Part shown: one piece after another, positions 37,701 to 63,671 of the stretch
How positions within the stretch are numbered: the stretch's first letter is position 1
How the letters are laid out: each line of letters begins with the position of its first letter
Assembly (NCBI RefSeq): GCF_964204645.1
Contig: NC_134029.1
Coordinates: 2,923,001 to 2,987,000 of the forward strand
Direction of reading: 5' to 3'
Source: Tubulanus polymorphus
Taxonomy: Eukaryota; Nemertea; Palaeonemertea; Tubulaniformes; Tubulanidae
Length of the DNA stretch: 64,000 bases
The notes under the pieces: model-generated
What the model was told of the DNA's origin: nothing
The model's input: the letters and a program-made list of their open reading frames with translations, nothing else
The model's database searches: none
Made by a program: the position numbers and the translations under genes

Positions 37701-40700
37701 GTATAGATTTCTTCTTTGCTGACACAGCTATTGTTTTAATAACTGTATAAACAAAGACTTGTGATACGTATCTGAAAATATCGATTTGAAAGTGTGGGCT
37801 GTCTGGAGTGTCACATCCCTAGGCAACCATCATTGTGATGAGGCTCCTCTACAGCTTCCATATACAATGATGTGTATACAACAGAGACATCCGCAAAACC
37901 CTGCATATGTCTATAGCTATTCATCAAATAACGTCATTTTGTTAACTACTAAGCGAATAAAGAATTAGGCTACCTGATTTGTGACTAAGTTTATACCGTT
38001 TTCAGTATGAATGAATTTCGCCAAATGTTCTATTTTCGTCTGTCTAAATGCTGATAGTCATTCAGTGCACAGAATAATTCGAGTCTTTATAAATGAATAG
38101 CATGGATTCAATTATAGTGTAATGTCTTCTGACGAATTACCGCATACATCAATCTCTCGTCTATGCGGCACATGTAGCTGTTTGTCTGGGGATAATGAAT
38201 GTTATAAATCCCCGAGGAACGAATAGCGTGGTGTCTCAGACGTAGCTTAATCTTCTTCAATAATAAAAGCTATTGCAGCTAATACTTCGCCCAGATGACT
38301 GATGCTTTCAGGGCCTTATTCTATTCTATGTTGTATAGTGTCGGCTACGGTTATGTATGAAGCTTATTTTGTCTCGGCATTAACATTGAATGGTACTATA
38401 TCATAGTTACATCAGAAGCTCACGGTCTGTGAAATGTGTAAAGAGCTTCATGAACCCACTTAAATCCGGCATCCGAGGCTCCTGATCGATTCATACATTT
38501 TAATCTTGTCGATTTCAGGTGAAAGAATCGTGACTTATTCGTCCGGATGCTTGCAGACGGAAGTACTGGTTAATCCACAATGCAGCACGGTAAGAAATCG
38601 TCTGTATTCCCTGATCGGTTCACCGCTGCAATACAAGTACATCATATTCGCCGGTCATATGATCCAAGGCTCCGGCGCCTGGGTACTCCAGGATAACATA
38701 TTCGGGCCGGATCAGGTCATACAGATCGTTAAAGATACGCCTGACGCCGATTTAAAAGACTCTCTTATTACGATTCATTGTTTGGAAGAGGGTGATTGGT
38801 CGACTGCCGCATTCGCAAAACAACTTAAAGGTACGAACATCAAGGTGAACCCGGAAGGAAAGCTGACCGAGATCGCCGGCGTTATGCAGTTTACGGCTTA
38901 CGCTTCAAACTTCATCCACGTGCAACAAGTCGAGGACATTCTACAGTCATCGGACGTCGTCGGAAACATTAGATTTAGCAAGCCTACATTGTACATATTC
39001 CCCGGGGGTCAAGGGGATTCCGCACTGTTCGGTATAAGCGGTTTTAATCTCCTCGTTAATGGAGGATTTAATCGTAAAGCGTGCTTTTGGGATTTCACTC
39101 GACATCTAGACCGTATTGATGCCCTACTCCTTACGCATTTAGGCGCTGACAACATATTTGCTGTAAGCAGTGTTATGCAGCGTAAGGCAGCTCAGTCCGT
39201 ACATCCTGAAATCGGTTACATATATTATAACGCTATTGATAAGGTAAAGCATTCCACGAATGGCGAATCGCCACGTGATAAATCTCGAGGTCTTCTTATA
39301 AATGTACTCGATGAAGGTAATCGCATTGTAGAAAATTTGAAATTACAAGGCCAATCACCGGCTTCTTGCGTGCGACCGAATTCAAGTGAACCTATCAATC
39401 TTTATCATAAGGTCGGCCACGGGTCATTAGATATGTACATTTTGAATCCGCAGCAGGATAGCAAAGAATTGAAAGATTTCTTGCTGCAATGGAGCAAGAA
39501 AGTCCCAAATATTTCGGCCTGTAAACCAGGCCAAATCCCGTTACCTGATTCTGTGTCTGTATGCTCACTTCTAGTCTGGCAGCCAGCCAACAAGTCAGAA
39601 AATATCACTCGAATCTTGTTCCCAGGTAACGTTCCTCAGCAAAAAGTATTTGAGGGTCTCGACAAATTGAAGGCGTTAGATTTCCTTAAATTTCCACAAT
39701 GCACCGACGATGATCTCCACAATAAGAAGAAGCCAGTTGCCGGTAAATCAGCAGCTAAATCGGTTACGAAAGCAGGTACAAGTAAACTGGGCATTAGAAC
39801 AGCGGGTGAGAGAAAGGGAAGTGATGCTAAAACAGATTCAAAAACAGCAAGTAAGAGTCCCTCGCCACCGAAACAACCGACAAAGAAAGTTAACGATGCT
39901 AAAAAAGGCAAAACACCTCCGTCTAAATCATCACCAAGTGTAAAAAGTCCTGGAGACAAACCCAAAGAGCTAGCCCCAGTTCCTGTTGTAGGAGCTGTGC
40001 CTCCAGTACCAGTTGGGGAACCAACACCTCCGGCACCAATTGTTGAAGCGGCACCTCCAGCACCAGTAGAACCAATACCACCACCTCCAACTAAAAAGGA
40101 ACCTGAACCCATTGTTGAGCCAGTAGCTCCAGCTGCTATTGATGAGCCAGTAGCCCCTGCTCCTATTGTTGAGCCAGTAGCTCCTGCTCCTATTGTTGAA
40201 GCCTCACCTCCTGCCTCAGATGATCCGCTTCTAGATTTTGGTATTCCTCCTCCAGAAACGCCTCCAGAACCAAAAGCTGAGTCTCTTCCTGATCCAATTA
40301 TCCCTGTTGCGCCTGTAGAACCAGCTCTTATTGAGGATGATGTGCTGCTTGCAACTAAAGACTCTCCAACTGAAGATGCGTTAACACCAGATGACACAGA
40401 TGAGCCTTCTGTGGCTGAAGTTGTTAATGAAACCCCTGCATCTCTCGACGACCTTGAACCTGCTCCCACAGGTGATCTATTGGGAGAAAAATTGGAGCCT
40501 GCAGATGTACCAAATGGTTTAGGCGATCCTTTCATAGATACCCCATCTCCAGCTGATCCTCCTTCAGCTGATCTTCTTGGAGATCTCGATACGCCACAAG
40601 CTTTACCTGATCCAGCAGTACAGCTTGAAGCTTTCGGCCAACCTGTTTTAGATACACAAGAACCCATGAAAGGGCATGTAGAAGAAGAGGATGTATCATC

Positions 40701-42834
40701 CATTCTTCCAAGCAAGCAGGAGGATCTTTCCACTCTTGAGCCTGAAGAAATAGAATCAGAAACAACTCAGCCTGATCAAGCTTTGTTGTCCCAATCAGAG
40801 CCAATTGAGGCTGAATCCACACAGCCAGATCAAGCTTTCTTCCAACCTGAACCCATTGAGCCTGAATCCGCACAGCCGGATCAAGCTTTCTTCTCCCAAC
40901 CTGAACCCATTGAGCCCGAATCCACACAGTCGGATCAAGCTTTCTTCTCCCAACCTGAACCCATTGAACCCGAATCCACACAGCCAGATCAAGCTTTCTT
41001 CTCCCAACCTGAACCCATTGAGCCCGAATCCACACAGCCGGATCAAGCTTTCTTCTCCCAACCTGAACCCATTGAACCCGAATCCACACAGCCGGATCAA
41101 GCTTTCTTCTCCCAACCTGAACCCATTGAACCCGAATCCACACAGCCAGATCAAGCTTTCTTCTCTCAACCTGAACCCATTGAGCCCGAATCCACACAGC
41201 CGGATCAAGCTTTCTTCTCCCAACCTGAACCCATTGAACCTGAACCTGCACAGCCAGATCAAGCTTTCTTCTCCCAACCTGAACCCATTGAACCTGAACC
41301 TGCACAGCCAGATCAAGCTTTCTTCTCCCAACCAGAGCCAATTGAGCCTGAATCCACACAGCCGGATCAAGTACTCTTCCAACAAGAGCCCATTGACTCT
41401 GACAAAATATTTTTAGAGGAAGCATCTCATTGTGACACTGTAGAGCAACCTGGAAATGATGATCCATCTGAAAAGGCTAAACTCGCTGAATTGGGAATTT
41501 TTGATGATGAAGCTGGTTCTTTACCTTCACATGAAAAGCTGGATAGTCAGAAACTTGCTGAATTAGGTATCTTTGATGAAGAAAGTGAAAAGGATGTGGA
41601 TACAACAGAAACTCAATATCTTCAGCATTCGCCCGAAGATGTAGAAAATGCTAATGTACCAATGGACCAACGAATCATGGCAGAGATGGGTATATATGAT
41701 GAGGATGATTCGACAAATGCCAACAGATCTGAACCTACGCAGCAGGAATCTAGTCGTGAATCAAGCATACCTTCCGATTCACAGTCTCGAGAAACTCCTG
41801 ATACTGAAATTGAGATGGACGATAAACCTGCAGAAGAGGCATCAGTTCAGTCAAGCATTGAGACAACAGAGAAAGATGTAGCAGATGTCAATCTCGTTCA
41901 TCAGCCTGATCCATTCGTAGGTACAGATAGCAATGATCCATTCCAACCCGAACCATTGCAGATCCAGACCGGCGAGCCTTCTGAGCCATTTGACCCATTG
42001 AAAGACTGGGATGAACCAATGGGTTTACCATCACCACCTCCTCCCGAAGATAAGACAGCGAGCGCTACTGCCAATGACGTCAATCATAAGCCGACTACGA
42101 AAAAACCCGCTACGCGTAAACCAGCATCGGCTACCGCAAAAACGACTGACGTCAAGAAGAAGAGTCCGACGTCACCCACAAAGCCATTGACAACGACTAC
42201 GAGGAAAACAACTACGGAAAAGAAAGGAGACACGACATCGACCACAAAAACTACAACCGTCGAAAAGAAGGGAAATGCTACGAGTACAACAAAAACATCT
42301 ACGACCACTACGAGAAATGCAGCTCCGCTTAAAAAGACACGACCTACATCAGCACCGGTTAAAGATGCGAAGGAAAACGCTGCCCCTGCTACGAAGAAGG
42401 CACTGGCTTCAAAGCCAGCATCGGCGAAGACCCGCCCCACGAGCACCGCCTCGGCCAGTCCTAAACCTAAAGCTCTCGCCCCTGTCTCACCATTTTACGT
42501 GGATTTGACATACGTGCCAAACCACGGAAATGCACAATACTGTGATCTAGAATTTTTCCGACGTGTTCGCGCTCGATATTACGTAGTCAGCAGTCTGAAC
42601 CCTAGCGCCCATGTCCTCAACTCATTGCTGGAGGCGAAACAAACCTGGGAAGATAAGGATTTAGAGGTGACGGTCATACCTACTTATGATAATGATACAT
42701 TACGTCACTGGATGGGTCTTCATCGCGATAAGTTAACCGAATTAAAAATTGACGTCGCGCCATCAGCTAGTCGGTGTACTATACAGCTGCAAGATCATGA
42801 GACTAGTTGTGCTGCATACAGATTAGAATTCTAA
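28750..42834 (+). CDS. Microtubule-associated protein 1 (MAP1/futsch family)
   Basis: Neuronal microtubule- and actin-associated protein, cleaved into heavy and light chains in vertebrates. Exons 28750-28906, 37049-37141 and 38519-42834 join in phase to 1521 residues; the last exon alone codes 1438, as is usual for MAP1 genes. The N-terminal domain matches MAP1A/B/S blocks: [73 protein letters not shown], then THLGADN as a degenerate metallo-beta-lactamase-type motif (about 288) and [20 protein letters not shown]. The centre is Lys/Ser-rich, then Pro/Glu-rich, with eleven 18-residue repeats (about 844-1041) and three AELGI(F/Y)D motifs. A Lys/Thr-rich basic segment precedes the light-chain C-terminal domain (about 1408-1521: [30 protein letters not shown]). 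The first ATG precedes a standard GTAAGT donor. Intron 1 is 8.1 kb. Confidence 0.95.
28907..37048 (+). other. MAP1 intron 1 (8.1 kb), no gene seen
   Basis: The largest intron in the window. AT-rich, with no convincing exon on either strand. It contains a short CAG run at 32277-32296 and a CTG-rich stretch at about 33870-33892. The ORFs in it (the longest is 124 codons, 31761-32135) have no splice context or family resemblance. A gene with a long first intron often keeps enhancers or alternative promoters there, but nothing in the sequence identifies any. Confidence 0.7.
37142..38518 (+). other. MAP1 intron 2, no gene seen
   Basis: A 1.4-kb intron with a standard GTAAGA donor and a TTTCAG acceptor. 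No other feature is supported. Confidence 0.7.
40797..41390 (+). repeat. 54-bp (18-residue) coding tandem repeat in MAP1
   Basis: Eleven units of about 54 bases encode variants of [18 protein letters not shown], ending in a partial unit (QQEPIDS). The central units are nearly identical in DNA, differing mainly at third positions and at CCAGAT/CCGGAT. The edge units differ: EAEST, ESAQ, STQSD, EPAQ and QVLF. Because 54 is divisible by three and the units lack stops, several other frames stay open across it; those are not genes. Confidence 0.95.
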
Positions 42835-45800: not shown

Positions 45801-47323
45801 TGCATAAATACTGTCTGAAAATGTTGAAAGATTCTGTGAAATATGACATTTGAGTAGTCTGACATTATTCCAGTCTGGTTGTAGTGATATTTGTGCGAAC
45901 AACGCAGTTTTTATAGGTTTATTTAGCGGTTCATGTATTTAGAGTGAATGTGAAAAATGAAGCCAAATTGACACTTAACTCATAAATTTATACTTATTGA
46001 TTACATTAGTTCAATATGTTTTATAGCATATATAACTCTGTGCTGTGACATCAGGTTTGATGGTAATTTATTCTCAAATCCCCACCATAATTTTTGAGAT
46101 TTGTAACTCTTAAGAACAGCTCATGATTTGGGATTTCTCCACGAATTGGTTGTTTGAAAGTGGATTTTTGAATGGACCAGAAAGAGATCTTGTTTAATAT
46201 TACTGATTATTTGGTGCAGCATTTTGTAATAATATCATCCAAATATTATATATCTTTTACAGTTGCATACTTATGCATCATAGGCAATGACTGTATTTCA
46301 TCGGAGACCAAACTGGACTTTAGAGGTGTTAATCAACTGATATATATGTATGAATCTCACATAACTTATTAATGTCATTCGATGAGCTCGAGTAGGTTCG
46401 CTGACACATCATTAATAAGTCAAGTAGGAATTGCTCTTCTAGAAAGGTCGCTGCTTAAGACAAATAGCTCTAAAAACTAAGAATATATTTGTTTGAATTT
46501 GCTTGCGTAGCCTCACCCCTTGAAAGTGGGATTAATCATACTCTATTCAAATGTGTGTATATTCTTTGTTCAGCCTTCTGTCAATCACTTGCTATGGATA
46601 TAATATTAATAAGCAGTTGTTTTATGCAATGTCGCCACCCGATATCTTATAATCATGCATGAAAAAATTTGAAAAATAAAAATGGCAAAAAGTGCTGTAT
46701 CTATGGTGTTGAATTGTCAGTGTTTGATTGTTATTTTACGTTTGTCCTTCATCTGGTCGCGCACTCCGGACCTACCATATATCCTGTCTCTTCATATCAA
46801 TACTTGTTACTGCTGTCTAACCCGCTCAATTCGTGTCACATTATTCCAGATATTCATTCGAATTATGTACAAAACTTCCTCTCTTTTCCATCCATGATAT
46901 ACTATTTTTCGAGAAAATAATCAATATAAAATATAAACAGCCATTGTCCTCTCTCGATCCCGAGACATCATCCGACAGTAGAGAAACCAGCAACCACAAC
47001 AAACATTGTTAAACAACTGGGTAATCTTTTAACTTAAATTAGTAATATTTATTACGTATCAATATTTTACGTGCCGCCTTCATGAACAGATTGAAGCCAA
47101 ATTAAAACACATTCAGAAAACACTAATTACTGGTAACAGTAAGTGACATCGTTCCGCTGATATTTAAAACATGATGAGTTCACTTAAATCCAGCACACGC
47201 TTCACAAGCACGAAATATGTAATTGTTTAAAAATGTCTTCTATCCTATAACTAATCACAGTCGATGAAGAGAAAGATGATGCTGATGATGATGATGAAAG
47301 GATTCGTAGTGTAAGAGGATTCA
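42835..47323. other. Convergent spacer, MAP1 and DNAJA3 3' ends
   Basis: 4.5 kb of AT-rich DNA with no gene I can support. AATAAA at 42974-42979 is a plausible MAP1 poly(A) signal, 140 bases past the stop, though much of the interval could be an extended neuronal 3' UTR. A (TTA)n-like stretch is at about 44360-44390. The paired plus and minus ORFs near 45.1-45.4 kb lie over a GC-rich patch and have no family resemblance. Confidence 0.55.
42974..42979 (+). terminator. Candidate MAP1 poly(A) signal
   Basis: The first AATAAA after the MAP1 stop, 140 bases downstream. Other AATAAA hexamers occur later, so longer 3' UTRs are possible. Confidence 0.4.
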
Positions 47324-47424
47324 TTAACCGCTATCTTCTTTTTTATTTTTGTCGAGCCATTGTTCGTTCAAAATAGTCCGTAATTGCGCAACAAGATCAT
47401 CTTTATCATCTACACACAGGCGCC
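47324..47424 (-). CDS. Candidate alternative last exon of DNAJA3
   Basis: On the minus strand TTTTTGTAG precedes an open stretch that ends in TAA. Joined to the G left by DNAJA3 exon 11 (47921-48018), it reads in phase G-RLCVDDKDDLVAQLRTILNEQWLDKNKKEDSG-stop. The result is an acidic/amphipathic tail replacing the usual [12 protein letters not shown] ending. The phase match, clean acceptor and protein-like composition support an exon. Alternative C-termini of DNAJA3 (long and short forms) are known in mammals, but this tail is not one I recognise. A poly(A) signal (AATAAA, minus strand) is at 47048-47053. It could instead belong to an unseen gene or be chance. Confidence 0.45.
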
Positions 47425-47602
47425 CTACAAAAACCATATAATGAACATTCGTTATTCAATTGACAATAAAATCTACCGGTAAAAAAAAATTCTTCTAAAT
47501 AAGTATTCAATTATGGGGCAATAATCTGTAGCTGTAGACTGCCTAGTAAAGCCAAGAGTAAAGAACAGAACTGCCTACCTATTAAACTAAGTTATATCTA
47601 TG

Positions 47603-50600
47603 TCAGCCAAAGATTTTCTTCTTCATTTTTGTAAGGAATCCATCATTAGAACTGGATTCGGGACTATTTTTGCCTTCATCATCGTTACCTGCGGTTGTAT
47701 AAGACAATAATAACGATCAACTTTTAACCGAACTGAACTCGTAGAAAATATCTTAGGGGTTTCAGTGTATTGAACGAATTTGACTTTCGGATTATCGATT
47801 AACAGAACCTTCAAGAAAACTAATCGTAACAAGTTTTACTGACTAAATTTTGATGAAACTGTGCGAAGAATATCTTTGGCCGAGAATTCGATTCCGTGTA
47901 TTAAGATGCGCGAGTTTTACCTGCTGAGGTTTGAGCTATACCATTTACTGCACCATTCACATCAGTTTCAGTTTCAGCATAAGCTTGTATCAACGCCTTT
48001 TGTTTATTTGACAATTTACTGGAAAAAAACCCCATCAATTCATCAACTATAGAAATAACTTCATCCGTGTATATACATATATCGCAATTTTATTAAAAGT
48101 TAGATTTTAAATGATGAGAACAAACTGTTTGTGACTGCAAGGGACACTAGTTGGTGCTCGACAGGGAGCTGGACTGGTTCAAGAAAGGCGTCAGTGAAGC
48201 CATACAGATCAGGATCCACAGCCTTACCTCAAACGAGAGATAGATACCAGCTCCACCATGTTTGGAACAGTTCACTACGTATGCACTTGCATGTGAAGCG
48301 CATCGATGAAGATCGAATCGATTTGGATCAAAAGCTCAGGGCGAGTTTTAAATCCAATGAAATTGTGTATTTTCAACGTTTAAAGTTCATCCATCTATAA
48401 TTCATCACAGTATATCAGCATAAGTGATAATTTTACTGTTATTGAGAGTGAGACTTACGTCGGAACTTTGATGACGAAATAAATGTAGTGATCTCCGTAT
48501 CCGTAACTGTTTACACGACTAATACCTTTACCACCTAGACGTATCTTAGTATGTGACGACGTCCCAGCAGGAATCTGTAATAACATTAATATACCGAGTA
48601 ATATTTTGCAATTTCCTGCTTTATTTTGTAGTTACACTATAATTTAAGTCCAGGGCAGATCCGAAGGGATTAGAGCCTGAGTTACCTTAACATTGATATC
48701 ATCATAAACGCCGGGTACAATTACATTTCCACCGAGAATCGCTTGAGATAACGTAATTGCGACATCAGAATGTACATCAGCCCCTTCACGGCGGAAATCT
48801 TTACTTTTCGCTACCTACAAAAATAGCAACATAGTCTTATTCCATACCCATTTTGAGAAGTGAGATGTAGACCAGACTAGCTGATATCTCTAATTGTAGA
48901 ATTTTCAACAAAAAATCTGAATTATTTGACATAGAAAATAGTAGTTAAACTGAAAATGAACTAGAATCCATTCGCATTTTGAGAGAATATTGATATTCTC
49001 AGTAGTTGAGGTCTTAAGAAGAGTAAAAGCTAATCTCAAATAGTCAGGGTCTGCAGGAGACAGCAGAAACATGCAATACAGCCAACTAAACCCTTATAAA
49101 CTTAAACTTTCAATTAACTGCTATGCCAGGTTTTTTTTTGAGAATGATCTGAACAAGTAACAGTTAAACCCAGATACGTTATCACTCTCTCTCTTTATAA
49201 CACCACAATCCTAAATCATTGATTCGATGTGGCTTACAGTACATCGGGGATTAATTGTACTTACTTTTAACTGGACAAATAATTCATTTTTGCCCACATT
49301 AACACGAACGGTCTGTCCATCTTCAACACCTGAAAATAACAATAAGTAACAACTATCTTAATTATCTTAACAAATTCCATCAGAGATTCAATTTATCAGC
49401 GCTTCAACAAATAATAGGCACATGAAGCAAGTAGGTAGTACCAGCACTTACCAGCCGGTATTTTAACCATAACTTTCTTGCGTTGTAACGTGACACCTCG
49501 TCCGGAGCACTCCGTGCATGGAGTCGGAATAATAGTTCGTTTACCCATACATCGGCGACAAGTCGACTGCATCATGAAACTACCGAATGACGTCGTTTCC
49601 TACAATAGTGAATCATGTGTTTTAACAAGAGACGCGACATTCAATTACATATTCACCATGGAAAAGCGTCAATAAACTACCCGCCCGGATCCATTGCACT
49701 GAGGACACATAATTCTACGCGTGCCCGGTTCAGCTCCAGAACCATCACATTTCGGGCAAGTGTCTTTAGCGTTGATATTTATTTCCTTGTTGACTCCGCG
49801 AGCGGCTTGAGTGAAATTCAATTCTAACGTCACCTAAAATGACAAAACAAGAGTTTATGGATTAGATAATGACAAAACAAGAGTTTATGGATTAGATATT
49901 ATTGATGTAAAATTAGTCTTTCACGTTATAAAGAGCACGTTTTTAAACCCTGTTTTTTCCCAGCAGATGCAACTGGCGGGTACAATGGAGAGTTGCATCC
50001 AAAAATGGTCTTAAATTGTGAGACTGGACTTTAATATTAGATAAGCTTTAAAACAATAGATTGTTTTGGACTGGTCTTAAATCTAAGCGTAGCCTAGTTG
50101 GAACCGTACCCAAAAAAATTCAAAGAATGTTTTTTTTTCAGCTCACATTAATTCAACTATCTCAACCCATAATCAGTGAGAAAAGAATTATTCATCATAC
50201 CTCCATCGCTGCGGCAAATCCATGTTTCGAATCCTCGTAGCTTTCAAAATCAGAATACGACGAATTCATCCCAAAATCTTTGAAAAAATCGCGAAACAAA
50301 TCCTCTGCGGTGAAACCTGAAAAACATCATCGAAAAACAGTTTTCAAACTTAAAGAGAAAAATGCCTTCAATTCCAGGATTCTTCATACACCCCAAGATC
50401 ACAATCTAGTAACACGACTTTCTGTGACTTTTTTCAGCAAAATTCGACTCAATTTCACATTAGTCCATATTTCCTGACAGCGTGCTCACCTTTTTGTTGA
50501 CCACCTCGTCTCTGAGCAAATGGATTTTGATACGCGCCCTGACCAGGGAAGCCTTGTCCAAAGCCACCTGGGCCGCCCATTCCTGCTGACCCAAACGTAT

Positions 50601-51322
50601 CGTACTGTTTCCTTTTAGTTTCATCGGATAAAACCTGTATAAACAAAAATAAAATAATTCGATCTCAAACAATCTTGATTTCAATCGGCAAAAATCATAA
50701 ATACGTAACTTACTTCATAAGCTTCAGAGATTTCTTGGAATTTTTTCTGTGCGTTTGGCTCCTTGTTAACATCGGGGTGATATTTCTTTGCTAACTGTGC
50801 AAACGAAAGAAGATTAAATTCAATGAAACAAACCTAATTTTGTTTAATCAGGGTTTATCTTCATTCTATACCTGAAAATACGCCTTTTTTATGTCTTTCT
50901 GGGAAGCATTTTTAGATATTCCCAGAACATCGTAATGATCGAATGAAGGCGATGAAAGATGAAATAATCGCACATTCTTCGTGAAGAGGGTTAAACTACC
51001 CTGAAAACCTGCAGAAAAAATAAAAATAAAACATCGCTTTATACTTTTAACGAGATAATAAATAATCACACCATCATCGATCAGTAATTAGTTGATTGAA
51101 TAAATTAAATTTTATTAGGCTATAGATGTCATCATCAACACTAAAGAAGGTATTACCGAGTAATCTCTGATGTATTTTCTGGCTATGAATGCCAAATGAG
51201 TGAAACTGTTTTTTCAGTATTTGTTCGGTGATTTTGCTGTGATTCTGCCACGTTTCGGCGCATGGTAAATGTGATAATTTAGGTGTGATTAGAAATGAAC
51301 CCCGTCTCCACATGGCGGCCAT
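47603..51322 (-). CDS. DNAJA3: Mitochondrial DnaJ co-chaperone DNAJA3 (Tid1)
   Basis: Type I J-protein that stimulates mitochondrial Hsp70. Twelve exons in phase: 51157-51322, 50872-51008, 50714-50794, 50490-50634, 50201-50316, 49681-49833, 49452-49599, 49265-49329, 48686-48814, 48459-48574, 47921-48018, 47603-47688, giving 479 residues (human about 480). Basic presequence ([15 protein letters not shown]), J domain from DHYDVLG (about 79) with HPD at 107-109, Gly-rich linker, then four zinc-binding repeats from about 241: [32 protein letters not shown]. The third lacks the final Gly. Next come the C-terminal substrate-binding domain ([30 protein letters not shown]) and the tail [12 protein letters not shown]. 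The start is the first ATG; an in-frame TTG lies three codons upstream. A competing last exon is at 47324-47424. Confidence 0.96.
49838..49897. repeat. Perfect 30-bp tandem duplication in a DNAJA3 intron
   Basis: Two abutting identical 30-base copies containing GACAAAACAAGAGTTTATGG, starting five bases from the splice acceptor of exon 6 (49833). The duplication includes the acceptor-proximal intron, so it may be recent or allelic. Confidence 0.85.
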
Positions 51323-52061: not shown

Positions 52062-53437
52062 TCAGTTTTTTAGCTCGATTCTCCTCGTGGCATCAGTTTT
52101 CGTTTCTGGTTTTTTAGTCAAATGTTTCATCAATCCTGGAATCATGATCACAACACTTAGAATCTGCATCCCAGCACAGAAATAGAACGAATAGGCATAG
52201 TTCCCTGTTGCGTCGTATATCCAACCTGCGAATAAGGAATATCATCAAATTTATCTAAACATGTTTCTAAAATCTATCGTCTGAATTAACATTTTGGTAA
52301 TCATAATCGTTTGAATGAAATTCATTCGAAAACGTTATAAAATGGATGTTAGGATAGTTTTGTTGCATTCAGTAGACCTAGACCTACCTGCAGCAGGAGC
52401 ACCAAGTACATATCCAATTCCACTAAAAAACAGACTATATGAATATGACATGTACAAGTATTCACTTCCAAATAGCTGTAACGGGACCAGTACGTATAAA
52501 CTACTATATGCAGACAGAAAAACTCCAGTAGAAGCACTGACTACCAGGGCTGCTGTAAAACCCTTCAGAAATGGTAGTACACCGACTGGAATCGCAAGTA
52601 ACGCGTTGAGAATCATGTATAAGGTGAATGTATCGATCCTCGGATGTTTGGTCATCATCGAAAATACAACTCTTCCAACGAGCAATGCTATAGCTATGGC
52701 GGATAACGTAAATCTTGCTTGTTCTGTTGATATTTCGAGTAGAAATTTAGATCCTGATACAATATGTACATAGATCGTAGACACAGACAAGCACAAAATA
52801 AAAGAATGTATAACAAATGCCACAAACATTTTCCGTTTAAAAAGTTCTAGTTGGTAGAGATTGTGCTTTGCGTCTTTCTTTTGCCCCAAGAGCGATTCTT
52901 GATGCTCGTCTGGAGGATGTTGATTTCGATTTTGATTCTGATGTTTATCATTGGACCAATTACGAAACACGAGTCCAAGAGCGCATTGTTGGAATGAGAT
53001 ACCACCGATAATTAAACAGCCTCCTCGCCAACCGTACTCATTCAAACAGTAGTTGATGATGAAAGGGAAAACGAAGGTTCCTCCAGATCCACTCATACCC
53101 CGCAAAGCTTGAACCACTGCCACGTGATTCAGGAATCTGCATAATAGATATGGGCCCATGGCATTCATCAAAACTGCCAAACCACATCCTGAAAATAAGG
53201 TCGTATATATTGAAAATATTTTCCAAATTGAATTAGATGTAGATGAAAGCTCTTTAAATTGAATATTAGAAATATTCTTGTTTCAGAAATGTCTACCAGC
53301 GAGAACCCGAAGAGCTATAGCAACGTAGAAGTTGTATGCAAATGACGTCATTGTAATAGCAGTTGCGTTGATAACGGAGGCAATGAAGAAAACTTTGCAG
53401 AAACCAAATCTTTTGACCGCCAAGTTTCCAAACAGTG
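52062..53437 (-). pseudogene. SLC16-like transporter, copy A, first exon missing
   Basis: Exons 2 (53297-53437), 3 (52388-53188) and 4 (52062-52225) match copies B-D, and all stay open with good splice sites. Upstream, homology to intron 1 continues only to about 53570 (through TTTGATGCCAGAAACGGTAA) and then gives way to unrelated sequence. The exon coding MIEDEKSNRLETV and the first membrane helix is absent. In exon 4 an indel shifts the tail to TKTDATRRIELKN followed by a stop, so the C-terminus differs from B and D. This may be a 5'-truncated pseudogene. Alternatively it may be expressed from an unseen exon, or by splicing from the exon 1 of copy B, 2.3 kb upstream. No inactivating stop was seen in exons 2-3. 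Confidence 0.7.
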
Positions 53438-54158
53438 CTGAAAAGATATAGATTCCTAAAATCTTCATTGGTATGTATTTGCTCGATTTGTCCTCTTAAA
53501 TAATCATTTTATCGACGTCGAAACATACAAACTATGGACTTTGATGCCAGAAACGGTAACAATAATGAGTAAATATAATAATAACGGGTTGGCATTGTTT
53601 TGATCTCAGATCAGAGTACTGTAATTAACTTTGATCCGAATGTCCCCTCGTGGTATATTTCTGGGAATTGGTATCTTTTCGTCGAGAAAGGCCATCTGAT
53701 TCGACGCGTGAATTTCACATTGGACTGTCTATATGACCCACTCGCACTAACCATCTCGTGACTGTCTTCTAAAAGACATATATGGATTATACTTAGTGAT
53801 ATCACTCAGGTCAGATGCCCCGTACGCATGGCGTGTTCGACCCTGATCTCTCTTAATTAATGCTTTCTGCGGCATGTGAGTTATCACTTACGCCGCCGAT
53901 ACCAATGTTAAATACTTAGTTCGTTGCCCCATATATATCATTGACGGGGGTGAATTTATGAACTAATTCAGTATAAACATCACCACCGGACTGAATATTT
54001 CCCGCATTCAATAGCTTACTAAGCCTTAGTAAAATGAAGTTGGAGTGGGATTTCTGTTGATGGTTGGTCCATATTTGAATTTCCTCCTCATATGAAATAA
54101 TGATAGACAAAACAAAGCCCATGTTGTGCATTATATGGATTGATTGTTGTAACAAATA
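53438..54158. other. Breakpoint interval between copies A and B
   Basis: Starts as intron-1-like DNA (to about 53570), then about 590 bases not seen elsewhere in the window. This is where copy A's first exon should be. I recognise no gene or named repeat in it. Confidence 0.55.
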
Positions 54159-55954
54159 TCAAGTAAGGCTTTGAACACTGATTATATAATTTGCAGATTC
54201 AACTGTCAGTTTTTTAACTCGATTCTCATCATCATCAGTTTTCGTTTCTGATTTTTTAGTCAAATGTTTGATCAATCCTGGAATCATGATCACAACACTT
54301 AGAATCTGCATCCCAGCACAGAAATAGAACGAATAGGCATAGTTCCCTGTTGCATCGTATATCCAACCTGCGAATAAGGAATATCATATCAAACATGAGA
54401 TATTCCGTAGAAATATTTTTCTAAAATCTATCGTCTGAATTATCATTTTTGGTAATCATAACCATTTCAATAAAATCCATTCTAAGACTTAATGAGATGT
54501 ATTTTATGGGATAGTTTTATTGCGTTGAATAGACCTACCTGCAGCAGGAGCCCCAAGCAGATATCCAATTCCACTAAAAAACGTACTATATGAATATGAC
54601 ATGTACAAGCATTCACTTCCAAATAGCTGTAACGGAACCAGTACGTACAGACTACCAAAAGCAGACAGAAAGATCCCATTTGAAGCACTGGCTACCAGGG
54701 CTGCTGTATAACCCTTCAGAAATGGTAGTACACCAACTGGAATCGCAAGTAACGCGTTGAGAATCATGTATAAGGTGAATGTATCGATCCTCGGATGTTT
54801 GGTCATTATCGAGAATACAACTCTTCCAACAAGCAATGCTATAGCTATGGCGGATAACGTAAATCTTGATTGTTCTTTTGATATTTCTAGTAGAATTTTA
54901 GATCCTGATACAATATGTACATAGATCGTAGATACAGACAAGCACAATACGAAAGAATGTACAAGAAATGCTACGAACATTTTCCGTTTAAAAAGTTCTA
55001 GTTGATAGAGATTGTGCTTTGCATCTTTCCTTTGTCCCAATAGTGATTCTTGGTGCTCGTCTGGAGGATGTTGATTTCGATGTTGATTCTGATGTTTATC
55101 ATCTTTAGACCAATTACGAAACACAAGTCCAAGAGCGCATTGTTGGAATGAGATACCGCCGATAATCAAACAGCATCCTCGCCATCCGTACTCATTCAAG
55201 CAGGAGTTGATGATGAAAGGGAAAACGAAGGTTCCTCCAGATCCACCCATACCTCGAAAAGCTTGAACCACTGCCGAGTGATTCGGAAATCTGCATAATA
55301 GGTATGGGCCCACAGCATTCATCAAAACTGCCAAACCACATCCTAAAAATAGGTTCAAATTCAATAAGATGTAAATAAAAGTTACATGTATGTTCATAGA
55401 ATAATAGAAATAATCAAGTATCAGAACTCTAACCAGCGAGAACCCGAAGAGCTATAGCAACGTAGAAACTGTATGCAAATGACGTCATTGTAATAGCAGT
55501 TGCGTTGATAACGGAGGCAATGAAGAAAACTTTGCGGAAACCAAATCGTTTGACCGCCAAGTTTCCAAACAGTGCTGAAAAGAAATAGATTTTAAAAATA
55601 TTCATTAGTATAGAACTCGGATCGGATTGTACTTAAATCGATGCCGGACTTGATAACCTACGAGACATAGCAAAGACTATGGACTTTTATGCCAGAAACG
55701 GTAACAATAACGAGAAAATACACATATAACATACCTCCACAAAAACTAATTCCTACTATGACTGTACCGAGCCAGGCAGTCATACTGCTTCCCTGATGAA
55801 AATAATCCATCCATTCCGCTACCAGAATTCCATCAACAAAACATCCACCTACGATGAATTCAGCCGCGAAACCAGCTAGGATAATTATAACAGTCTCCAA
55901 ACGATTCGATTTTTCGTCTTCTATCATCGCGTCACCGGAGCGGTTTCCGCTCAT
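54159..55954 (-). CDS. SLC16 (monocarboxylate transporter)-like protein, copy B
   Basis: Major-facilitator solute carrier, probably twelve membrane helices, in the plasma membrane; the substrate is unknown. Exons 55735-55954, 55434-55574, 54539-55342 and 54159-54367 join in phase to 457 residues. Helix 1 follows SNRLETVIIILAGFA. The loop after helix 2-3 has FGNLAVKRFGFRKVFF. A hydrophilic central loop (NQHPPDEHQESLLGQRKDAK) separates the two halves. Helix 8 carries an internal Arg (VGRVVF). GWIYDATGNYAYSFYFCAG near the end matches the SLC16 G-W-(I/L)-Y-D pattern. The highly charged cytoplasmic tail contains KKSETKTDDDENRVKK. Start: ATG of MSGNRSGDAMIEDEK. It sits in a minus-strand tandem array; nearest relatives are copies A, C and D. 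Confidence 0.9.
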
Positions 55955-57698
55955 GTGTATATAATTTGTGTCATATTTGATTAAATCACGCCAAAGAAAG
56001 AAACTTTAATCGAACGACGTTTTTGAGTAGATCCCTGGAAATGTTTCCAACTATGGAATTATATGATCTTATCTTATCATGAAGGCCGTCTTACTCGACC
56101 AGCAGATTTGACCCGGGGTTTGAATGAATGATTGAATGAATTGTGTGTTCTTTGTATTAATAATACGTGATTAATTCAAAACATATACCGTATATTATGC
56201 ATGCATTTTGGAATGATGACACAACGAAGGACCCCAACAGTGCGGCGGCTGTGCGCAGAGTGGTCTGGGCCACTGATAAATGGAGGGGATGAAAAATTAA
56301 AAAAAGAGAAAAGAGATCAACAAAAAGCAAAAAAGGTTATAAGAAATAAAAAACGAATAAAAAAACAATATTTCAACGTGTAAATGTATTTATATACATA
56401 TCTGGTGAGTTCTATTAGTGATGACGTGGAGGATGCGAGGGCTGTAATACCGCTGATCACGATTACTTATATCGAATGGTTTGGGTTTTATTTGATGTTT
56501 GGTTCAAAAAATAGAAATGAACGATACCACATACCGGTATAAAATAAATACTATACTCACTGAATATATCTTGTATGTATAATCACGTCCACCAATTCAC
56601 AGAAGCTGAGTGCAGTTTCTGACATATCTAAATCCCCAAAAATCTCCGCATAAGCATTCTCAGATTTGATTGGCTAATTTGTCTATAACCTTAATTTCAT
56701 TGGATGGCGAGTTGTGCTTTCCTTGAGTATCGAAATGGTTAAGGATTTCTAATTATTTGAGATTTAATTAGAATTCTACCTCCTCAAGCATATGGATTGA
56801 TCTTGAATTGAATTAGTTTGCCTAATTATGTGAAGATTAAGCTTCACGTAAGTTAAGTACTCTATTGAGCCAAACCACATCAGAGTCAGCAGCTATTGTT
56901 CCAAAACGGTTTCTGCTGCCATTATTCCATTTTGTGCAGTTTGACTATCGTCTCTAAAACGAAGAGCCCATGGTTTTTTTTCATGTAGACGGAAGTCCAT
57001 GGGTTTATCAATCAAATGAGAACAGTGCGGGTTCACACTCGGGTGAACATATGAAACACGGATTTGCGCATTTGTACCAAGATAATAAGGAGAAAATAGA
57101 AAAAAGGAAATATCATTAACAAAGTAGAATTATATGAGATTTAGAAAGTATGAATTGGAGCAAAAAGTGTATGAAAGAAGTTGACGAAAGGTCGACTATT
57201 CCACAACATGGTACAAGCTATCCAAATACAGCTAAAGCTAGAGTAAATTGATTCATATCAAGGATATCAATAGGGGCAAATAAAAATACAAAATAAATAA
57301 AAATTGGCCTAGAGCGCTTAAGAGTTGTCGAATATTACATACTATTAGCATGAATTTAAGATTTGAATTTGTCAGATTTAATCTGTAAACCTGGGGGTTT
57401 AACCTTAAGCGATAACAGCTTGTTGTCAAATCAAAATCAGATTATGTCAATGATGAAGGAAGAGGCTCAAAAAGTGTTGATCCCTTTCTGTGTAACAGAT
57501 CTAAATCCAAACACTCCCCCATTAATAGTACCGACAGAGTAAAAAGTGGCTCACAATTCTTTAAAAAGAAGCAGATAATGCTTTAATATGGCTTTAAGTA
57601 TCAATGAAATTATACGATGAAACAAGTTGTTTGAATGATTGAATTCAATAGATGTAATTTCACATCACTGTCTATTGTTGTAGAAAAAAGCATCGTCG
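55955..57698. other. Upstream region of copy B
   Basis: Promoter and 5' UTR of copy B plus the 3' flank of copy C. From about 56570 onward it is recognisably homologous, with many changes, to the flanks at 59640-60670 and 62640-63670, for example around TAATTTCATTGGATGGCGAG. This places it in the same duplicated unit but from an older event. No gene was seen. Confidence 0.6.
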
Positions 57699-59424
57699 TC
57701 ATGGATCAAGTTGGACTTCAGATTCAAATGTCAGTTTTTTTACTCGATTCTCATCATCATCAGTTTTCGCTTCTGTATTTTTAGTCAAATCTTCGATCAA
57801 TCCTGGAATCATGACCACAACACTTAAAATCTGCATCCCAGCACAGAAATAGAACGAATAGGCATAGTTCCCTGTTGCATCGTATATCCAACCTGCGAAT
57901 AAGGAATATCACATCAAATATCGAATATCTATTAGCGAATATGGAACCTGAAAATATTTGAAATAATCAATATCTATAATTTCAGAGACATTCGTGCGAA
58001 TCCTTACGGATCGGGTTTTATACAAGGGTATACTTAATATTACATTGCATTGAGACCTACCTGCAGCAGGAGCACCGAGTACATATCCAATTCCACTAAA
58101 AAACATACTATATGAATATGACATGTACAAGTATTCACTTCCAAGTAACTGTAAAAGAACCAACATATGTAAACTACTATAAGCAGACAGAAGAACTCCA
58201 ATAGAAGCACTGACTACCAGGGCTGCTGTATAACCCTTCAGAAATGGTAGTACACCGACTGGAATCGCAAGTAACGCGTTGAGAATTATGTATAAGGTGA
58301 ATGTATCGATCCTCGGATGTTTGGTCATCATCGAAAATACAACTCTTCCAACAAGCAATGCTATGGCTATGGCGGATAACGTAAATCTTGCTTGTTCTTT
58401 TGATATTTCTAGTAGAATTTTAGATCCTGATACAATATGTACATAGATCGTAGACAGCGACAGGTGGAAGATAAACGAATGTACAAGAAATGCTACGAAC
58501 ATTTTCCGTTTAAAAAGTTCTAGTTGATAGAGATTGTGCTTTGCATTTTTATTTTTTTCCAAAAGTGATTCTTGATTGTCTTCATTATCCGGAGGTAGTT
58601 GTTCATCATTTTTAGACCAATTACGAAACACAAGTCCAAGAGCGCATTGTTGGAATGAGATACCACCGATAATTAAACAGCATCCTCGCCATCCGTACTC
58701 ATTCAAACAGTAGTTGATGATGAAAGGGAAAACGAAGGTCCCACCAGATCCACCGATACCTCGAAAAGCTTGAACCACTGCCACTTGATTTGGGAATCTG
58801 CATAATAGATACGGACCCAACGAATTTATCAGAACCGTAAAACCACATCCTGAAAATTTAATAGGTTTGTCTAAAATAATCGAATCAAAAATATGTTTAT
58901 CAATAAAAAAGAGAAGGAAGAATCAAACAACAGAATTCTTACCAGCGAGAACCCGAAGAGCTATAGCAACGTAGAAATTGTATGCAAATGACGTAATTGC
59001 AATAGCAGTTGCGTTGATAACGGAGGCAATGAAGAAAACTTTGCGGAAACCAAATCGTTTGACCGCCAAGTTTCCAAACGGTGCTGAAAATGAATTCAAA
59101 AATCTTCTTATTTACTGGAATCCATGTTTTAATTGAAGGACCTGATAACCTAGCGTCTATGTATAAACTATGGACTTTGATGCCAGAAACGGTAACAATA
59201 ACGAGAAAATATACATACATGTACAACATACCTCCGCAAAAACTAATTCCTACTATGACTGTACCGAGCCAGGCAGTAGTACTGCTTCCCTGATGAAAAT
59301 AATCCATCCATTCCGCTACCAGAATTCCATCAACAAAACATCCACCTACGATGAATCCAGACGCGAAACCAGCTAGGATAATTATAACAGTCTCCAAACG
59401 ATTCGATTTTTCGGCTTCTATCAT
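57699..59424 (-). CDS. SLC16-like transporter, copy C (shortened N-terminus)
   Basis: Exons 59232-59424, 58943-59083, 58061-58849 and 57699-57892 join in phase to 438 residues, with the same helices and SLC16 signatures as copy B. The central loop has the alternative form PPDNEDNQESLLEKNKNAK shared with D. The upstream ATG used by D (at 62449) is present here, but an extra base makes it read MSRKRRFR followed by a stop. The next in-frame ATG (MIEAEKSN, 59424) is therefore taken as the start, losing about ten residues before helix 1. The C-terminal tail is also shorter than in D, ending SEVQLDP, apparently through a small deletion. Probably functional, since the membrane core is intact. Confidence 0.87.
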
Positions 59425-60672
59425 CACGTCACCGAAACCTGCGTTTTCTGCTCATACGTAAATTGTGTCGTTTCGATCTTCAGTTTAACTTTGAACAGTT
59501 TATTTGTGTTTCGAACTGAGAAATAATCGGTCTTATCTTTAGAAAAGGAGGCTATCATTACGTAATGAAGTGTCCCTCTTTTACCTATACTGAATACCAG
59601 ACGTTGATACGGTTCCCTACTTTGAGGAACAACGGAATGTAATGTGTATGTATAATCACGTCCACAAAGTCACAGAAGCTGAGTGTAGGTTCTGATATAT
59701 CTAAATCCCCCCAAAAAAACTCAACATAAGCTTTCTATCAGATTTGATTGGATAATTCCTTCTAAAACCTTAATTTCATTGGATGGCGAGTTGTGCTTTC
59801 CTTGAGTATCGAAATGGTTAAGTACTTTGTTATTTGAGATTTAATTAGAATTCTAACCCTTCAAGGCATATGGATTGATCCAACGAAGGTCCCATGGTGT
59901 TTTGCTGTGTTTTGGCGTCCTTGACGCCAGGGTGAGAGTCCATGGTTTTATTGATCAAAGGGAAAACAGTGTCACCTCAGGACGAACGTCCATACGAAAC
60001 ACGGATTCGCGTTTTTACCAAGAAAAGAAGAAAAGAAGGCAAAGAAAATATCAGACACAAAATAGAAATATTGGAGATTTAGAAATCATGAATTGGGGCA
60101 AATAGTGTGAAAGAAGATGACAAAATGTCAACTATTACACAACATGGTACAAGCTATCCAAATACAGCTAAAGCTAGAGTAAATTAATTCTTATCAAGGA
60201 TATCAATAGAGGCAAATAATAAATGGCCTAGAGCGCTTTGGAGTTGTCGAATATTACATACTATTAGCATGAATTTAAGATTTGAATTTGTCAGATTTAA
60301 TCCGTAAACCTCGGGGTTTTAACCTTTAGCGATAACAGCTTGTTGTCAAATCAAAATCAGATTATGTCTATGATGAAGGAAGAGGCTCAAAAAGTGTTGA
60401 TCCCTTTCTGAAGATCTAAATCCAAACACTCTCCCATTAATAGTACCGACAGAGTAAAAAGTGGCTCACAATTCTTTAACAAAAACAGATAATACTTTAA
60501 TATGGTTTTAAGTATCAATGAAATTATACGTTGAAACAAGTTATTTGAATGATTAAATTCAATAGATGTGATTTCACATTCGGGGCGGCCTGGAGTAGTG
60601 ATGGCGGCGAAGACCAGTTTTTGTTGTTGTGCACTGTCTAATGTTGTAGCAAAAAAGCATCATCTTCATGGA
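59425..60672. other. Inter-gene segment C/D, part of ~3.0-kb tandem unit
   Basis: Upstream region of copy C and 3' flank of D. Nearly identical to 62450-63671, with scattered single-base changes and a few short indels. Short ORFs such as those near 59875 and 60568 recur in the second unit only because the DNA is duplicated; they show no coding signs. Confidence 0.8.
59558..59565. promoter_or_regulatory. TTACGTAA palindrome upstream of copy C
   Basis: A perfect TTACGTAA, the core recognised by PAR-bZIP/NFIL3-type factors, about 135 bases upstream of the copy C start. It is also present upstream of D (62552-62559). The near-identical flanks mean this conservation carries little weight. Regulatory use is inference. 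Confidence 0.2.
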
Positions 60673-62449
60673 TCAAGAGAGACTTTGAACACTGATCATA
60701 TAGTTCGCAGATTCAACTGTCAGTTTTTTAACTCGATTCTCATCATCATCAGTTTTCGTTTCTGGTTTTTGAGTCAAATGTTCCATCAATCCTGGAATCA
60801 TGATCACAACACTTAGAATCTGCATCCCAGCACAGAAATAGAACGAATAGGCATAGTTCCCTGTTGCGTCGTATATCCAACCTGTGAATAAGGAATATAT
60901 GTCAATATAGAAATATATGTATCCTAAAAATATTTGAATTCATCGTTTTCTTGAATTTCAATTATTTCAAAGAAATTCGGTGCGAAACCTGTGGGCGATT
61001 ATACGCAGGGTAGACCTACATAATTGCATTGAATAGACCACCTACCTGCAGCAGGAGCACCAAGTATATATCCAATTCCACTAAAAAACATACTATATGA
61101 ATATGACATGTACAAGCATTCACTTCCGAATAACTGTAAAACCACCAACGTATATAAACAACCATAACCAGACAAGGAAATCCCAATAGTAGCACTGACT
61201 ACCAGGGCTGCTGTATAACCCCTCAGAAATGGTAGTACACCTACTGGAATCGCCAGTAACGCATTGAGAATTAGGTAGAGAGTGAATGTATCGATCCTCG
61301 GATGTTTGGTCATCAAAGAAAAGACAACTCTTCCAACAAACAATGCTATAGCTATGGCGGATAACGTAAATCTTGCTTGTTTTGTTGATATTTCGAGTAG
61401 AAATTTAGATCCTGATACAATATGTACATAGATCGTAGACAGCGACAGGTGGAAGATAAACGAATGTACAAGAAATGCTACGAACATTTTCCGTTTAAAA
61501 AGTTCTAGTTGATAGAGATTGTGCTTTGCATTTTTATTTTTTTCCAAAAGTGATTCTTGATTGTCTTCATTATCCGGAGGTAGTTGTTTATCATTTTTAG
61601 ACCAATTACGAAACACAAGTCCAAGAGCGCATTGTTGGAATGAGATACCACCGATAATCAAACAGCATCCTCGCCATCCGTACTCATTCAAACAGTAGTT
61701 GATGATGAAAGGGAAAACGAAGGTCCCACCAGATCCACCCATACCTCGAAAAACTTGAACCACTGCCACTTGATTTGGGAATCTGCATAATAGATACGGA
61801 CCCAACGAATTTATCAGAACCGTAAAACCACATCCTGAAAATTTAATAGGTTTGCATATCTTTAATAAAATGATCGAATCAAAAATATGATTATCAATAA
61901 AAAAGAGAAGGAAGAATTAAGTATCGGAATTCTTACCAGCGAGAACCCGAAGAGCTATAGCAACGTAGAAATTGTATGCAAATGACGTCATTGCAATAGC
62001 AGTTGCGTTGATAACGGAGGCAATGAAGAAAACTTTGCGGAAACCAAATCGTTTGACCGCCAAGTTTCCAAACGGTGCTGAAAATGAATTCAAAAATCTT
62101 CTTATTTACTGGAATCCATGTTTTTAATTGAAGGACCTGATAACCTAGCGTCTATGTATAAACTATGGACTTTGATGCCAGAAACGGTAACAATAACGAG
62201 AAAATATACATACATGTACAACATACCTCCGCAAAAACTAATTCCTACTATGACTGTACCGAGCCAGGCAGTCATACTGCTTCCCTGATGAAAATAATCC
62301 ATCCATTCCGCTACCAGAATTCCATCAACATAACATCCACCTACGATGAATCCAGACGCGAAACCAGCTAGGATAATTATAACAGTCTCCAAACGATTCG
62401 ATTTTTCGGCTTCGATCATCACGTCACCGAACCTGCGATTTCTGCTCAT
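60673..62449 (-). CDS. SLC16-like transporter, copy D
   Basis: Exons 62227-62449, 61937-62077, 61046-61834 and 60673-60881 join in phase to 453 residues. The N-terminus is MSRNRRFGDVMIEAEKSNRL. All family landmarks of copy B are present, including GWIYDATGNYAYSFYFCAG and the central loop form PPDNEDNQESLLEKNKNAK shared with C. Residues around LSGYGCLYTLVVLQLFGSE differ sharply from C (LSAYSSLHMLVLLQLLGSE), although the flanking DNA is nearly identical. The tail ends SVQSLS. Complete and apparently intact; the substrate is unknown. Confidence 0.9.
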
Positions 62450-63671
62450 CCGTAAATTGTGTCGTTTCGATCTTCAGATTAACTTTGAACAGTTTATTTG
62501 TGTTTCGAACTGAGAAATAATCGGTCTTATCTTTAGAAAAGGAGGCTATCATTACGTAATGTAGTGTCCCTCTTTTACCTATACTGAATACCAGACGTTG
62601 ATACGGTTCCCTACTTTGAGGAACAACGGAATATAATGTGTATGTATAATCACGTCCACAAAGTCACAGAAGCTGAGTGTAGGTTCTGATATATCTAAAT
62701 CCCCCCAAAAAAACTCAACATAAGCTTTCTATCAGATTTGATTGGATAATTCCTTCTAAAACCTTAATTTCATTGGATGGCGAGGTGTGCTTTCCTTGAG
62801 TATCGAAATGGTTAAGTACTTTGTTATTTGAGATTTAATTCGAATTCTAACCCTTCAAGGCATATGGATTGATCCAACGAAGGTCCCATGGTGTTTTGCT
62901 GTGTTTTGGCGTCCTTGACGCTAGGGTGAGAGTCCATGGTTTTATTGATCAAATGGAAAATAGTGTCACCTCAGGACGAACGTCCATACGAAACACGGAT
63001 TCGCGTTTTTACCAAGAAAAGAAGAAAAGAAGGCAAAGAAAATATCAGACACAAAATAGAAATATTGGAGATTTAGAAATCATGAATTGGGGCAAATAGT
63101 GTGAAAGAAGATGACAAAATGTCAACTATTACACAACATGGTACAAGCTATCCAAATACAGCTAAAGCTAGAGTAAATTAATTCTTATCAAGGATATCAA
63201 TAGAGGCAAATAATAATTGGCCTAGAGCGCTTTGGAGTTGTCGAATATTACATACTATTAGCATGAATTTAAGATTTGAATTTGTCAGATTTAATCCGTA
63301 AACCTCGGGGTTTTAACCTTAAGCGATAACAGCTCGTTGTCAAATCAAAATCAGATTATGTCTATGATGAAGGAAGAGGCTAAAAAAGTGTTGATCCCTT
63401 TCTGTGTAACAGATCTATATCCAAACACTCCCCCATTAATAGTACCGACAGAGTAAAAAGTGGCTCACAATTCTTTAACAAAAACAGATAATACTTTAAT
63501 ATGGCTTTAAGTATCAATGAAATTATACGTTGAAACAAGTTATTTGAATGATTAGATTCAATAGATGTAATTTCGCATTCGGGGCGGCCTGGAATAGTGA
63601 TGGCGGCGAAGACCAGTTTTTGTTGTTGTGCACTGTCTAATGTTGTAGCAAAAAAGCATCATCTTCATGGA
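62450..63671. other. Inter-gene segment D/E, part of ~3.0-kb tandem unit
   Basis: Second copy of the segment at 59425-60672. It contains the upstream region of D (TTACGTAA at 62552-62559) and the 3' flank of E. No separate gene. Confidence 0.8.

Follow-up and report, generated by a model that had tools for sequence, protein, structure and literature searches.

A candidate alternative last coding exon in the single DNAJA3 (Tid1) gene of Tubulanus polymorphus

INTRODUCTION

Does the DNAJA3 (Tid1) gene of the nemertean Tubulanus polymorphus have the means to make proteins with two different C-termini? The human gene does so by alternative splicing: all 12 exons are present in Tid1-L (TID-L), whereas in Tid1-S (TID-I) exon 10 is spliced directly to exon 12 and exon 11 is skipped (PMC4941349, PMC11201664). 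Human Tid1-L terminates in EDEEGFLSKLKKMFTS and Tid1-S in KRSTGN, with a Gly at the junction of either form. The L tail lengthens cytosolic residence via Hsc70 and STAT binding and the S form reaches the mitochondria faster; in mammals the DNAJA3 tails determine how long the protein stays in the cytosol, which partners it binds and, in opposite directions, how it affects apoptosis (PMC9297570).

The window examined here is a stretch of 64,000 nucleotides (NC_134029.1, positions 2,923,001 to 2,987,000), and positions given below are those of the window. A preliminary description of it had proposed that a second terminal exon lies beyond the normal one of DNAJA3, that this exon would exchange a short, basic tail for an acidic one, and that the resulting switch would parallel the mammalian long and short forms and be undescribed and notable in an invertebrate.

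RESULTS

The gene and the common part of its product

DNAJA3 lies on the minus strand with its ATG at 51322, and spliced translation together with a whole-genome search (assembly of 267.8 Mb in 77 contigs) showed a single gene copy; the remaining matches were to other J-domain proteins and were located in the J domain. The common part is built from eleven coding exons, running from the ATG to the end of exon 11 at 47921, with GT-AG at every border and the frame open (Table 1). Its product contains a J domain (PF00226, E 7.6e-28) with HPD within KYHPDVNK, a Cys-rich zinc domain (PF00684, E 1e-13) in which the third of the four CXXCXGX(G) repeats is imperfect and CTECSGRG is seen, and a DnaJ_C substrate domain (PF01556, E 2.1e-32). 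The best human matches in the PDB were to DNAJA3 itself, 2dn9 for the J domain and 2ctt (E 2e-26) for the Cys-rich domain. The N-terminal 76 residues ahead of the J domain are basic, as would suit a mitochondrial presequence. Intron 5 carries a perfect 30-bp tandem duplication (2 copies, 49838-49898) which ends within a few bases of the exon 6 acceptor.

Table 1. Features of the DNAJA3 gene and its 3' end in the window
Feature	Position	Strand	Remarks
DNAJA3 coding exon 1	51157..51322	-	Spliced translation; ATG 51322; N-terminal leader basic
DNAJA3 exons 2-11	47921..51008	-	J domain, Cys-rich domain, DnaJ_C domain
DNAJA3 exons 2-6	51008-50872, 50794-50714, 50634-50490, 50316-50201, 49833-49681	-	Spliced translation
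DNAJA3 exons 7-11	49599-49452, 49329-49265, 48814-48686, 48574-48459, 48018-47921	-	Spliced translation
DNAJA3 exon 11, last common exon	47921..48018	-	Phase 1 end inside Gly codon (..NGIAQTSA-G)
Exon 12, L-type tail	47579..47688	-	Acceptor 47688; TGA ends 47603; 3' limit 47579 set by candidate donor
Candidate alternative acceptor	47425..47442	-	ATTATATGGTTTTTGTAG; score 9.62, best after exon 11
Candidate alternative (or shared) last exon, coding part	47324..47424	-	Tail RLCVDDKDDLVAQLRTILNEQWLDKNKKEDSG; TAA at 47326-47324
Poly(A) signal AATAAA	47048..47053	-	GT-rich stretch after; first good signal past both stops

The two predicted tails

The last base of exon 11 is the first (G) of a Gly codon, and exon 12 and the exon downstream of it can both be joined to this base in the same phase. 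Spliced to exon 12, exon 11 yields a product of 479 aa with a tail of 27 residues. The preliminary description of this usual tail as short and basic was mistaken: its net charge is 0, the first half being acidic and the end basic, and it resembles the tail of human Tid1-L. The alignment with the human tail (conserved L-tail motif GFLxKxKK) has P=0.0036 by shuffling and indicates that exon 12 here probably corresponds to human exon 11.

Spliced instead to the exon at 47424, exon 11 yields a product of 484 aa ending in G + RLCVDDKDDLVAQLRTILNEQWLDKNKKEDSG + TAA, in which the split Gly is followed by 32 complete codons. Here spliced translation bore out the proposal exactly, in the coordinates 47324-47424, the phase, the acceptor and the 32 codons plus stop. 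The alternative tail, a sequence of type DDLVAQLRTILNEQWLD, has a net charge of -2; it is thus acidic as had been claimed, but the contrast with a basic tail was overstated given the zero net charge of the usual one. AlphaFold2 applied to the alternative tail alone returned one helix with a pLDDT of 87, which counts for little because short charged peptides often give one. An amphipathic helix was considered and discarded, as the hydrophobic moment was no better than that of shuffled sequences (P 0.68-0.73). Searches of Pfam and the PDB found no similarity of the tail to any family or solved structure, and no relatives were found among viral or prokaryotic contigs, as expected for an animal exon.

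The alternative acceptor and the coding signal

The acceptor ATATGGTTTTTGTAG, followed by GGCG at 47424, restores the frame left by exon 11. Scored with a splice matrix built from the ten constitutive acceptors of DNAJA3, and thus from only 10 introns of one gene, it surpasses every other AG downstream of exon 11, the acceptor of exon 12 itself scoring 3.34, and no other AG occurs within ∼48 nt upstream of it. Such a score was reached by 0.42% of 9,124 background AGs, the background being made up of the window and of 8-kb pieces taken at random from the same genome.

The openness of the frame is by itself weak evidence for an alternative exon because at least 33 open codons follow 17% of AGs. 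An acceptor with at least the score of that at 47424 and followed by at least 33 open in-phase codons is expected 0.026 times per 600 nt of non-coding DNA, and the combination of an acceptor that good, the frame and an equal coding score was found 0 times in 186 kb (both strands). The coding score of the tail frame was 0.162 per codon, compared with a mean of 0.129 for CDS and of -0.07 for null frames; 3-4% of the null frames match it, and all five remaining reading frames of this DNA were negative. The score holds when the MAP1-like gene and DNAJA3 are left out of the training, and the signal lies in amino-acid composition only, synonymous codon choice being neutral. The genome contains the sequence of 47424-47324 only once, which gives no hint of a transposon fragment.

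The end of exon 12, poly(A) signals and surroundings

A candidate donor, TAG/GTAGGC, is present at 47578, 24 nt past the exon 12 stop. Its score of 6.43 is close to the median for the donors of this gene, and chance alone would supply an equally good one in 22% of stretches that long. If used, it would turn exon 12 into a 110-nt cassette as in human, with the last exon then present in the L mRNA too; the alternative arrangement is a composite last exon. The interval from the exon 12 stop to the alternative exon contains neither AATAAA nor ATTAAA. A second AATAAA is located inside the tail codons, at 47347-47342, and could be used also by exon 12 transcripts.

Four UAGG motifs were observed between 47688 and 47416, near the candidate exon 12 donor and the alternative acceptor, where 0.58 would be expected (P=0.003). 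UAGG is the core bound by hnRNP A1. The cluster at 47416-47688 is only a lead, as two of the four motifs lie at splice sites and the motif was picked after looking. Skipping of the human DNAJA3 exon is favoured by hnRNP A1/A2 (PMC4941349).

The next gene below is MAP1-like; it lies on the plus strand at 38464-42834 and is convergent with DNAJA3. The DNA from 47324 to the MAP1-like stop at 42834 contains, on both strands, only stop-to-stop frames shorter than 110 aa. Within the MAP1-like gene, 40768-41371 (plus strand) contains about 11 copies of a 54-bp unit that are 92% alike and code for an 18-residue repeat.

DISCUSSION

Origin of the exon at 47424

We consider that 47424-47324 is probably a true alternative 3' coding exon belonging to the one DNAJA3 (Tid1) gene and would put the probability of this at roughly 0.68. 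The direct basis is its sequence, its phase, the quality of its splice site, its coding-like composition and its uniqueness; from these we infer that it is used in RNA and translated and that the tail has a function.

A rather unlikely alternative is that a real acceptor at 47424 does no more than allow a 3' UTR intron to be spliced out, using the donor at 47578, in which case exon 12 would be constitutive and the 32-codon frame incidental. A good donor (6.43) is present and its position 24 nt after the stop is close enough to escape nonsense-mediated decay, but a donor of this quality arises by chance in 22% of such stretches and the coding-like frame in the right phase would have to be a coincidence of ∼0.6% (17% open multiplied by 3-4% coding-like). 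Moreover, the same layout is spliced both ways in human. Another suggestion is that the acceptor-like sequence is cryptic and unused and that the frame opened fortuitously in a 3' UTR, but the site occupies the very position of the alternative last exon in human. While an open frame alone is common (17%) and the codon choice is neutral, both in keeping with chance, an acceptor and frame together are expected only 0.026 times per 600 nt and, once the coding score is included, fewer than ∼0.01 times (0 in 186 kb), making simple chance distinctly improbable. Finally, the exon might be part of an independent transcript read from the minus strand, downstream of DNAJA3. No supporting point was found for this. 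The exon has the phase of exon 11 and closes with a stop codon, frames of at least 110 aa are absent between 47324 and 42834, and the MAP1-like neighbour is on the plus strand, so that the minus strand offers no other gene to which the exon could belong. Given that the stretch is unique and the next gene is convergent, a transcript of this kind is very unlikely, in agreement with the assignment of the exon to DNAJA3 in the preliminary description.

Comparison with human Tid1 and a possible mechanism

The candidate alternative coding exon of DNAJA3 sits where human exon 12 sits, and skipping of the Tubulanus exon 12 would give an S-type protein. In human DNAJA3, as is predicted for the Tubulanus gene, skipping the penultimate exon swaps an L tail, which in human ends GFLSKLKKMFTS, for a tail encoded by the last exon. 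The switch point is a Gly in both, with GGSTMD.. versus GKRSTGN in human and G-NDD.. versus G-RLC.. here. The parallel with the mammalian forms is thus closer than had been claimed, as the exon that would be skipped encodes the Tid1-L-like tail. The genes differ in that the human S tail has 6 residues (KRSTGN) and the tail here has 32, and no significant similarity of the two was found (P=0.16) in a comparison that has little power with 6 residues, although S tails are known to vary from species to species; furthermore, the human gene has 12 exons and that of Tubulanus 13, its second form being predicted from sequence. Because the layout matches that of human Tid1, the 47424 exon is read as a local L/S switch with a longer S-type tail.

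Joining of exon 11 (47921) to exon 12 (47688) would produce the L-type protein, and skipping of exon 12 with joining of exon 11 to 47424 would produce the same core with a slightly acidic, probably helical tail of 32 residues. The core, comprising the J, Cys-rich and substrate domains, would be unchanged between the forms. Both mRNAs would most likely end at the common poly(A) signal at 47053, and with a shared end the choice of tail would therefore be made by splicing, through skipping of the penultimate exon, as for Tid1-L and Tid1-S. By analogy the tail may set the time that the precursor spends in the cytosol and its binding partners, and a protein carrying the new tail would lack the contacts made by the L tail.

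Other invertebrates

The alternative tail itself seems to be undescribed, judging from a string search of open papers, and this part of the claim of novelty stood. The claim did not hold for the kind of switch in an invertebrate, as one has already been reported for Tid of the honeybee Apis cerana: Tid-L has 520 aa and Tid-S 489 aa, of which 457 residues are common, and the C-termini differ (PMC9813389). By subtraction the unique residues number 63 in the L form and 32 in the S form. The AccTid-S tail and the alternative tail here are therefore both 32 residues long and follow a shared core, although the two were compared by length alone and the equal length is only a lead. The Apis cerana forms were isolated from the animal by the authors, whereas the form here is predicted. 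Literature searches for other invertebrate Tid isoforms with a C-terminal switch gave Apis alone; a whitefly 'Tid-S' was rejected as a further C-terminal isoform, being a partial clone, and a tsetse paper contained nothing on a Tid C-terminal switch. With the kind of switch already known from human and honeybee, the gene here appears, from its sequence, to be a credible new example.

It is conceivable, though we regard it as doubtful, that the helical tail of 32 residues is an S-type tail of ancient origin, conserved in invertebrates and later cut to six residues in vertebrates, and that the L/S switch predates the protostome-deuterostome split. The same exon layout with a recognisable L tail in a distant invertebrate would suggest that the switch is a long-standing means of regulation, not one new to mammals, and partners of a longer tail would perhaps be easier to find. 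Apart from that, the DNAJA3 tail switch would be ordinary alternative splicing.

Additional observations

Upstream of DNAJA3 and on the same strand (minus), 52100-62470 is occupied by a tandem cluster of at least 4 closely related MFS transporter genes, whose exon borders are near-identical. In another locus, L018 1-8000 (C5:12000001-12008000), ∼8 kb of DNA is locally repeated and open in all three forward frames (RPRQFIILVLSPATIHYFGF...). This repeat is a satellite-like array, and similar units are present in L016.
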